64,000 nt of DNA, taken from assembly GCF_034343125.1 (NCBI RefSeq), contig NZ_CP139957.1, forward strand, positions 2,412,001 to 2,476,000. The letters are read 5' to 3'. Position numbers and translations under genes: made by a program. The stretch comes from Caldicellulosiruptor danielii. Lineage in GTDB: Bacteria; Bacillota; Thermoanaerobacteria; Caldicellulosiruptorales; Caldicellulosiruptoraceae. Each line of letters starts with the position of its first letter. The stretch's first letter is position 1. Positions 26,782 to 28,269 of the stretch are shown here, in pieces. The notes beneath the pieces are model-generated. The model was not told the origin of the DNA. It worked only from the letters and a program-made list of their open reading frames with translations, and made no database searches.

Positions 26782-26819
26782 TTGCTTGATACCTCCTTTC
26801 AAAATTTAACGCCAGGTAT

Positions 26820-26873
26820 TTTACAAAAATAAAAGCAGCCAAACTCCTCGTAACCTCGGAATTTGGCTGCTTT
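26820..26873 (-). terminator. Riboswitch-controlled terminator
   Basis: The 12-bp perfect stem AAAGCAGCCAAA/TTTGGCTGCTTT (plus 26832-26843 and 26862-26873) is followed on the minus strand by TTTTATTTTTG. Its loop contains TTCCGAGGTTA. That is exactly complementary to TAACCTCGGAA in the 3' part of the riboswitch, a mutually exclusive pairing typical of expression platforms. Confidence 0.85.
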
Positions 26874-26944
26874 GAAATCAAAGGCAAAAGAACGCCTTCT
26901 TTGCGCCTATTAAAAGGCGTAAAACTCCTTTTGCCTCCCCTTTC

Positions 26945-27076
26945 AAAGCTTCCGAGGTTAGCTGACGGGTTCGGGCCGAAAGGGTTAGCCCTACAGAAGC
27001 TTTTTTGCTTCTGATTCACCCCAAGAAAAATTGGGTCCCCCGTATCCCAGGTCTTTTCCCCTGGGAATTCAGCTTT
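26945..27076 (-). ncRNA. Cyclic-di-AMP riboswitch (ydaO-yuaA type)
   Basis: Read on the minus strand, the conserved blocks of the ydaO-yuaA aptamer appear in order. GGGGGACCC comes first, then GGGGTGAATC, AGGGCTAACCC, CGAACCCGTCAGCTAACC and TCGGAAGC. The closing helix can form between AAAGCT (plus 27071-27076) and AGCTTT (plus 26945-26950). The family senses c-di-AMP and usually turns genes off when it is bound. Here it precedes an aminomutase likely to make a compatible solute, in line with the osmotic and potassium roles of c-di-AMP. Confidence 0.9.
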
Positions 27077-27123
27077 TCAAAAGGAGTGCTAAGATTTTAT
27101 ATTTATTTTTATATTTTTGGTCT

Positions 27124-27405
27124 TTACTTTTTATAAATATCCCCTCTTGGGCCGATCTCATAGATGTAAACTGTAAGCTGCTCTTTTTCCACCTTATATA
27201 TTATCCTCAAATCGCCTTCTTTGTATCTACAAAAACCTTCTAATTTGCCATGTAATGGTTTAATTTTAGAGGAGGAAAATGGGTTTTGTGATAATTCTTC
27301 TTCTAAAATATTCGCAATCCTCTTTTTGATATTTTGGGGTAACCTCTGCAGATATTTATATGCATTTTTGGAAAGTATTATGTCGAATTTGTCGGATGTT
27401 CCCAT
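27124..27405 (-). CDS. RelE/ParE-type toxin
   Basis: This 93-residue protein matches the RelE/YoeB/ParE fold. It has an N-terminal helix hairpin (KNAYKYLQRLPQNIKKRIAN), the central strand region (PLHGKLEGFCRYKEGDLRII) and the final strand (YKVEKEQLTVYIYEIGPRGD). Toxins of this group are ribosome-dependent mRNA nucleases or gyrase poisons; the exact class cannot be told. The start overlaps the preceding antitoxin-like gene by 28 bases, the usual toxin-antitoxin layout. The minus-strand promoter lies before the antitoxin gene (TATAAT near 27745). Confidence 0.8.
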   Translation of the reverse strand: MGTSDKFDIILSKNAYKYLQRLPQNIKKRIANILEEELSQNPFSSSKIKPLHGKLEGFCRYKEGDLRIIYKVEKEQLTVYIYEIGPRGDIYKK

Positions 27406-27698
27406 TTAATACCGCCACCCGATTTAAACTCTTCCTCTGCTTCTTTCAATCTATCCATAAGCTCATCATCAAGACAGATTTCAGCTGTTTCTGCCCATTC
27501 AACTAATATATCTTTCAATCTTGCAGAGAGTAAATCAAAAGGTATATCCTTTAAAGCATCTAATAAAGAAATAGTAAAAGAGAGGAGATTTTCCCTTGTT
27601 TCAGTTTCTAAATATTTTTTAATTAACTCTATTTTCGCTTCCATATTCGGCACGTCTGATTCTGCAATGTGTATTTTCGCTTTTTTTCTTGAAATCAA
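27378..27698 (-). CDS. Putative antitoxin partner of RelE-like toxin
   Basis: This is an acidic, helical protein of about 106 residues (ETRENLLSFTISLLDALKDI, then EWAETAEICLDDELMDRLKE). It overlaps the toxin start. I place the start at TTG 27696-27698 because GAGGTG lies 7 bases upstream; a TTG five codons earlier overlaps that site. No ribbon-helix-helix or helix-turn-helix motif is obvious, so the antitoxin role rests on position, size and charge. Confidence 0.55.
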   Translation of the reverse strand: MISRKKAKIHIAESDVPNMEAKIELIKKYLETETRENLLSFTISLLDALKDIPFDLLSARLKDILVEWAETAEICLDDELMDRLKEAEEEFKSGGGIKWEHPTNST

Positions 27699-27885
27699 TT
27701 TTACACACCTCAAAAAACTAAAATTAAACTCTTTTAATTTTAATTATACCACATTTGAAGCTCTATTAACAATCCTCTGCAAAACATGTAGTTTTTGAAT
27801 AATAACCGGCCTGTCAATATCTTGTAACGCACAATTTTTTCATGGTATCATTAAATTAAGATTTTTTAAATGGAGTTGAACTAGT

Positions 27886-28269
27886 GTGTTAAACGTAGAT
27901 AATAAACTCCCTGATCTTATTAATTTTTTCAAGGCACGCGACGATGTGGTCGCTGTTTGGATAGTAGGTTCATACGGTACAAAATATCAAACAGAAAATA
28001 GTGATATTGACCTTGCGATTTTATTTTCTAAAGAAATTAGCTTTTTTGATGAACTGGATTTAGAAGTGCAGATATCTGACATTCTTCAAACAGACAAAGT
28101 GGACATTATAAACCTCAACAAAGCACCGCTAACCTTACAGTTTAAAACCATCAGTGAAGGAAAAGAAATAATTAAAAAAGACCCCATCAAAGTAGCAGAT
28201 TTTGAGGAGATAGTTTTGGATTTGTATCAAGATCATGAGTACTTTTACAGGTCATTAAACTTAATATAG
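27886..28269 (+). CDS. MNT-type nucleotidyltransferase (MntA antitoxin-like)
   Basis: This 127-residue minimal nucleotidyltransferase has the motif VGSYGTKYQTENSDIDLAIL (GSxG then DxD) and a third carboxylate in DIINLNKAP. In HEPN-MNT modules the MNT protein AMPylates and silences the HEPN RNase encoded beside it. The start is GTG with GGAG about 10 bases upstream, and a TTGTAA-N18-TATCAT promoter is plausible. The partner gene downstream is only a fragment, so this antitoxin seems orphaned. Confidence 0.8.
   Translation: MLNVDNKLPDLINFFKARDDVVAVWIVGSYGTKYQTENSDIDLAILFSKEISFFDELDLEVQISDILQTDKVDIINLNKAPLTLQFKTISEGKEIIKKDPIKVADFEEIVLDLYQDHEYFYRSLNLI

Follow-up and report, generated by a model that had tools for sequence, protein, structure and literature searches.

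A c-di-AMP (ydaO/yuaA) riboswitch was found in front of eam, a gene predicted to encode glutamate 2,3-aminomutase (EAM), in the 64-kb stretch of DNA analyzed here (the window). The best explanation, to which a probability of about 0.7 is assigned, is that it acts as a transcriptional OFF switch on eam and that c-di-AMP would gate the supply of an osmolyte, beta-glutamate. The riboswitch motif, the mutually exclusive RNA pairings, the enzyme class, and the conserved linkage of eam to a citrate synthase-type gene were established by computation. The source organism is a heat-loving anaerobe, and its genome (2.82 Mb, one contig) carries c-di-AMP riboswitches at three places and encodes a single diadenylate cyclase. 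The messenger c-di-AMP is best known for the control of K+ and osmolyte uptake; beta-glutamate is a metabolically inert anionic osmolyte. The features of the locus are listed in Table 1.

Table 1. Positions of the riboswitch, expression platform, and eam features in the window.
Feature	Positions	Strand	Basis or remark
c-di-AMP (ydaO/yuaA) riboswitch aptamer	26932..27084	-	Rfam RF00379, full length
Aptamer pseudoknot, loop strand CCCTTTC	26978..26984	-	Complementary to GAAAGGG 26944-26938
Aptamer pseudoknot, tail strand GAAAGGG	26938..26944	-	Partly common to antiterminator 5' strand
Antiterminator 5' strand, TAACCTCGGAA+GCTTTGAAA	26941..26960	-	20 bp to 26877-26869 and 26861-26851
Central hairpin inside antiterminator	26880..26938	-	Fold and alignment; sequence variable between species
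Antiterminator 3' strand, TTTCAAAGC-agccaaa-TTCCGAGGTTA	26851..26877	-	Fold and conservation
Intrinsic terminator, AAAGCAGCCAAA / TTTGGCTGCTTT and T-rich tract	26825..26873	-	Hairpin fold -27.5 kcal/mol
eam ribosome-binding site, AAAGGAGGT	26791..26799	-	Sequence
eam, glutamate 2,3-aminomutase (radical SAM/PLP), 407 aa	25558..26781	-	TIGR04368 above cutoff; 2a5h homologue

Aptamer and Expression Platform

The aptamer (27084-26932, minus strand) matched the complete Rfam covariance model RF00379 (model 1-134/134) with 99.5 bits and an E value of 2e-22, the gathering score being 38 bits, which bears out the ydaO-yuaA aptamer recognized on this strand in a preliminary description of the DNA. It was the sole Rfam match in the 64-kb window, and a Na+ riboswitch was matched nowhere in it. 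The pseudoknot pairing was present in all c-di-AMP switches examined, and its strands covary between paralogous switches (CCCTTTC/GAAAGGG versus CCTTCTT/AAGAAGG in the switch of an NlpC/P60 gene); the L098 sequence carries the same CCCTTTC and GAAAGGG strands. No promoter was detected directly 5' of the aptamer by a consensus scan. The region immediately upstream of the riboswitch (27124-27713, minus strand) holds a small gene for a ParE/RelE-type toxin and, before it, a small ORF, which has no Pfam match and likely encodes the antitoxin; the context upstream of the eam riboswitch varies among congeners. An ORF for a polymerase-beta-type nucleotidyltransferase (MNT-like), possibly half of a HEPN/MNT pair, is located at 27886-28269 on the plus strand.

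On the minus strand, TAACCTCGGAA (26960-26950) and TTCCGAGGTTA (26861-26851) are perfectly complementary over 11 bp, confirming the previously noted pairing of the aptamer 3' part with the terminator loop. Past a 7-nt bulge, the pairing resumes without mismatch for another 9 bp, GCTTTGAAA (26949-26941) with TTTCAAAGC (26877-26869), a continuation that had been overlooked; the 11 bp make up the outer segment of an antiterminator of 20 bp (11 + 9 bp) enclosing a central hairpin. On its 5' side, the antiterminator uses the 3' part of the aptamer (its P1 strand, core, and some of the pseudoknot tail); on its 3' side, it shares sequence with the 5' arm and the loop of the terminator. The 12-bp terminator stem, AAAGCAGCCAAA (26873-26862) with TTTGGCTGCTTT (26843-26832), precedes a T-rich tract and has TTCCGAGGTTA between its arms. 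Perfect complements of at least 11 to the aptamer tail occurred in 4 of 2000 dinucleotide shuffles, a count that includes neither the collinear 9 bp nor conservation, and a chance origin of the 11-bp match was rejected. The whole platform folds at -58.9 kcal/mol (z -6.4 versus shuffles).

In 12/12 congeneric genomes, the antiterminator retained its full 11 + 9 pairs and the terminator its full 12, while the central hairpin drifts among them; a loop A-to-G change in two species and a stem change in one are kept as G-U pairs. The leaders of the sister genus (G012) and of Thermoclostridium caenicola have a terminator and are devoid of the 11-bp loop segment, which, judging from the leaders compared, is an elaboration specific to the genus. 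Since the antiterminator shares strands with both the aptamer and the terminator, the latter two can form together, and neither can coexist with the antiterminator. At the level of base pairing, such strand sharing is the arrangement expected of an OFF switch. The mutually exclusive arrangements proposed in the preliminary description hold in this form, as antiterminator versus aptamer and terminator.

According to this scheme, the aptamer 3' strand would pair with 26877-26851 at low c-di-AMP (osmotic stress or low K+), and the resulting 20-bp antiterminator would occupy the terminator 5' arm and allow eam to be transcribed. At high c-di-AMP, the ligand would hold P1, the pseudoknot, and the aptamer core, leaving the 3' strand unavailable; the terminator would then form and eam would be shut off. 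That the riboswitch is instead an ON switch or inactive is very improbable. This alternative may draw on the near-equal minimum free energies computed for the antiterminated (-110.8 kcal/mol) and terminated (-110.0 kcal/mol) states, values that refer to 37 °C for a thermophile and to folds without pseudoknot, ligand, or co-transcriptional order. Because the two folds lie within 1 kcal/mol in a 37 °C model, the energies are uninformative on switch direction, and their comparison was discarded as a guide to the switch state. Against an ON or inactive switch stand the formation of the antiterminator from the aptamer 3' strand, as in the tested OFF switch of Dehalobacter (PMC9337991), and the conservation of both pairings around a drifting hairpin.

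Class of the Aminomutase

The eam translation scored 679.1 bits against the glutamate 2,3-aminomutase model TIGR04368 (cutoff 650), 482.3 bits against the lysine 2,3-aminomutase model TIGR03820 (cutoff 525.4), and 382.3 bits against the arginine aminomutase model (cutoff 600), so that only the first cutoff was exceeded. It contains the radical SAM CxxxCxxC motif as CGMFCRFC. The eam gene is the only KamA-family gene of the genome (one match to the family model at E <= 0.001), and it has a good ribosome-binding site, the AGGAGG core of which is conserved in the 12 aligned congeners. Alignment to lysine aminomutase (KAM, 2a5h) revealed the replacements D293K and D330N; Asp293 and Asp330 of KAM are the residues which, from the KAM structure, we take to bind the epsilon-amino group of lysine. 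Among 80 homologues with both sites covered, the pair was K/N in 27 (the window protein included), D/D in 53, and mixed in none, and the EAM and KAM groups were split in the tree with 100/100 support. The assignment to glutamate rather than lysine 2,3-aminomutase, already suggested from the sequence, is supported by these model scores, the site pair, and the tree. In both the model cutoff and the K/N substrate-site pair, the window protein is like other TIGR04368 glutamate 2,3-aminomutases, with no notable difference.

A lysine or mixed-specificity 2,3-aminomutase, with beta-lysine as the osmolyte, would fit the 50-odd percent identity to lysine aminomutases and the best PDB match, KAM 2a5h. 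It is nevertheless highly unlikely, given the missed lysine and arginine cutoffs alongside the exceeded glutamate cutoff, the replacement of both carboxylates for the epsilon-amino group, and the linked citrate synthase, which would supply glutamate, not lysine. Lysine was rejected as the substrate on the model cutoffs and the K/N residues.

A Putative Second Citrate Synthase Gene Linked to eam

The second c-di-AMP riboswitch of the genome (G000:C1:2368205-2368359) precedes a gene whose 452-aa product belongs to the isopropylmalate/homocitrate synthase family (switch and gene together at G000:C1:2368205-2369720; L084:3206-4724). Its homologues with 60-72% identity adjoin aconitase (L156, L194, and L198) or isocitrate dehydrogenase (L192 and L197), and Si-citrate synthase is absent from 13/13 family genomes and present in 13/14 control genomes. 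Therefore, this HMGL-like family member, which is closely related to copies found beside aconitase or isocitrate dehydrogenase, is most likely a Re-citrate synthase (Re-CS), here termed putative. Annotations often mistake Re-citrate synthase for homocitrate or isopropylmalate synthase (PMC12016533). The enzyme linked to eam could, against the supply-line reading, use a different acyl-CoA or keto-acid. Homocitrate synthase or another acyltransferase is an unlikely identity for the eam-linked gene product, under which the supply-line idea would be wrong and the eam switch would stand. It is favored by the lack of any NCBIfam equivalog model reached and by a 46% identical relative in the nif cluster at the place expected for NifV; it is countered by the 71-72% identity to aconitase-adjacent copies (including L156), by the aconitase or isocitrate dehydrogenase neighbors of the 60-64% homologues, and by the absence of Si-citrate synthase from every family genome. 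The relative in the nif/mod cluster (348 aa; G000:C1:540433-541479; L143:14934-15980) may be a homocitrate synthase with an origin inside the Re-citrate synthase family.

In the genus, the Shine-Dalgarno sequence AAAGGGAGG of the putative Re-citrate synthase gene shares nucleotides with the GAAAGGG strand of the pseudoknot, the start codon follows about 12 nt later, and the aptamer and this gene have no terminator between them. Translational shut-off by the ligand-bound aptamer is therefore likely. In the 12 congeners, the Re-citrate synthase gene has its own c-di-AMP riboswitch. The orthologue in G012, from the sister genus, is 83% identical and begins about 40 bp after eam, with a single c-di-AMP riboswitch in front of both. 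The same order, eam and then Re-citrate synthase behind one c-di-AMP riboswitch, was found in T. caenicola (L005) and a Clostridiaceae MAG (L006). These two, both riboswitch-bearing, were the only ones of the 80 fetched homologue loci with a Re-CS partner adjoining the aminomutase; the Rfam scan covered 40 of these 80 loci, the remaining loci being lysine-type. In G007, one of the 12 congeners (G007:C1:501100-504341; L109), the second riboswitch and the citrate synthase gene are separated by a transposase-like frame, the gene being found about 1.7 kb further on; such an insertion would uncouple the gene from the riboswitch. A transporter gene of the CitMHS family (Pfam: citrate transporter; L168:3258-4559, minus strand) is divergent from the riboswitch-eam-citrate synthase operon of the sister genus.

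The family genomes carry another Re-type paralogue, 71-72% identical, which adjoins aconitase in G012 and has no c-di-AMP riboswitch, as none of the three maps there. T. caenicola and the Clostridiaceae MAG encode a separate Si-citrate synthase besides the linked copy. An additional citrate synthase was thus present in every examined genome with the eam/Re-CS link, and the linked copy therefore looks like a dedicated feeder of a route from acetyl-CoA and oxaloacetate to citrate and on, via glutamate, to beta-glutamate.

Predicted Osmolyte Route and Relation to Known Systems

The predicted activity of EAM is the conversion of L-glutamate to beta-glutamate, and the second riboswitch would act on the second Re-citrate synthase, likely at translation. 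In this way, two points would be gated by c-di-AMP, the entry of carbon (from citrate through 2-oxoglutarate to glutamate) and the formation of the osmolyte, and the data suggest that the messenger gates the whole osmolyte supply line. We infer the ligand response and its direction, the enzyme activities, the osmolyte role in vivo, and the pathway flux. Independent support for synthesis of beta-glutamate de novo comes from the second citrate synthase gene, which is linked to eam and stands behind the same class of riboswitch. With somewhat better than even odds, eam and a second, dedicated citrate synthase gene are jointly controlled by c-di-AMP riboswitches, either within a single operon or through a separate switch for each gene; a complete de novo route from acetyl-CoA to beta-glutamate would then be opened and closed by the messenger, with transcriptional control of one gene and translational control of the other in the same cell.

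The switch and EAM may also work as proposed with beta-glutamate serving mainly as a counter-ion buffer for K+ at low salt, as a nitrogen/carbon overflow product, or as a precursor (e.g., of beta-glutamine), a reading with a small but appreciable chance of being correct. It is in keeping with the weak osmotolerance of the genus (PMC4187192), and neither a report nor a measurement of beta-glutamate in the genus was found in the literature retrieved. Conversely, eam stands behind a riboswitch class of osmotic and K+ control, its operon is free of degradation genes, and the partner gene is biosynthetic, which argues for the osmolyte role. A study of osmotolerance in C. bescii (PMC7071700) makes no mention of an aminomutase or c-di-AMP. 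In methanogens, beta-glutamate forms a static osmolyte pool and is made without an aminomutase, and it has been seen in a few bacteria (PMC1224877).

Control of a lysine aminomutase by c-di-AMP and of eam by Na+ riboswitches is already published. The ablA gene of Dehalobacter sp. CF has a tandem Na+/c-di-AMP riboswitch at which c-di-AMP terminates transcription in vitro, and eam was named among the Na+-riboswitch genes (PMC9337991). The predicted OFF direction of the eam switch agrees with the tested Dehalobacter riboswitch, and both share a c-di-AMP aptamer, an antiterminator formed from the P1/pseudoknot strand, an intrinsic terminator, and an osmolyte-pathway aminomutase, the OFF response in vitro being the Dehalobacter result. 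They differ in that ablA encodes lysine 2,3-aminomutase and is also preceded by a Na+ riboswitch, whereas eam encodes a glutamate 2,3-aminomutase without a Na+ riboswitch match, and its antiterminator is longer (20 bp), with the 11-bp segment in the terminator loop. The Na+ riboswitches upstream of eam (PMC9337991) likewise represent riboswitch control of this gene in an osmotic context, with another ligand and RNA class. The putative Re-citrate synthase resembles those of C. kluyveri, H. modesticaldum, and C. thermocellum (PMC12016533, PMC6115520) in its HMGL-like family and in the aconitase or isocitrate dehydrogenase neighbors of close homologues, but differs in being a second citrate synthase, eam-linked, with a c-di-AMP riboswitch in front. 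In B. subtilis (DarB), Listeria, and Lactococcus, c-di-AMP restrains pyruvate carboxylase allosterically or via a protein (PMC8822347); the control proposed here would likewise restrain the oxaloacetate/citrate/glutamate branch, but at the RNA level and on citrate synthase.

These comparisons suggest that the second c-di-AMP riboswitch before a Re-citrate synthase paralogue and the eam-citrate synthase linkage are new. The link under a c-di-AMP riboswitch was not found in the open-access literature, and older regulon gene tables might list eam or Re-CS. If the proposed supply line holds, c-di-AMP would control osmolyte synthesis and its carbon supply at the RNA level, besides uptake, and the locus offers a directly testable case. 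It may also answer the question left open in PMC6115520 of why some clostridia have two citrate synthases, and may provide a route to better osmotolerance, the lack of which limits biomass fermenters of the Caldicellulosiruptor type.

Distribution of the Riboswitches

A c-di-AMP riboswitch was located upstream of eam in 13/13 family genomes, and 22 of the 27 EAM loci in the tree had none in front. The link is therefore not universal; as far as these loci indicate, c-di-AMP control of eam is a trait of few lineages, largely of one EAM clade. Four of the five riboswitch-bearing EAM rows formed a single clade with Herbinix, and the tree did not establish a repeated independent origin of the link. 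Herbinix itself has neither the riboswitch nor a linked Re-CS. The fifth row, the riboswitch-eam locus of Syntrophomonas zehnderi, is the only one placed outside this clade, on a long branch, with no Re-citrate synthase-type partner nearby. In a class survey of 37 genomes, no EAM was detected outside the family at E <= 1e-165.

The third c-di-AMP riboswitch of the genome (G000:C1:1941098-1941260; L085:5099-5261, minus strand) is located directly before a gene for an SH3-NlpC/P60 wall hydrolase. Wall hydrolases of the NlpC/P60 type are classical targets of c-di-AMP riboswitches. Its pseudoknot strand AAGAAGG overlaps the Shine-Dalgarno sequence, and this switch is therefore probably translational.
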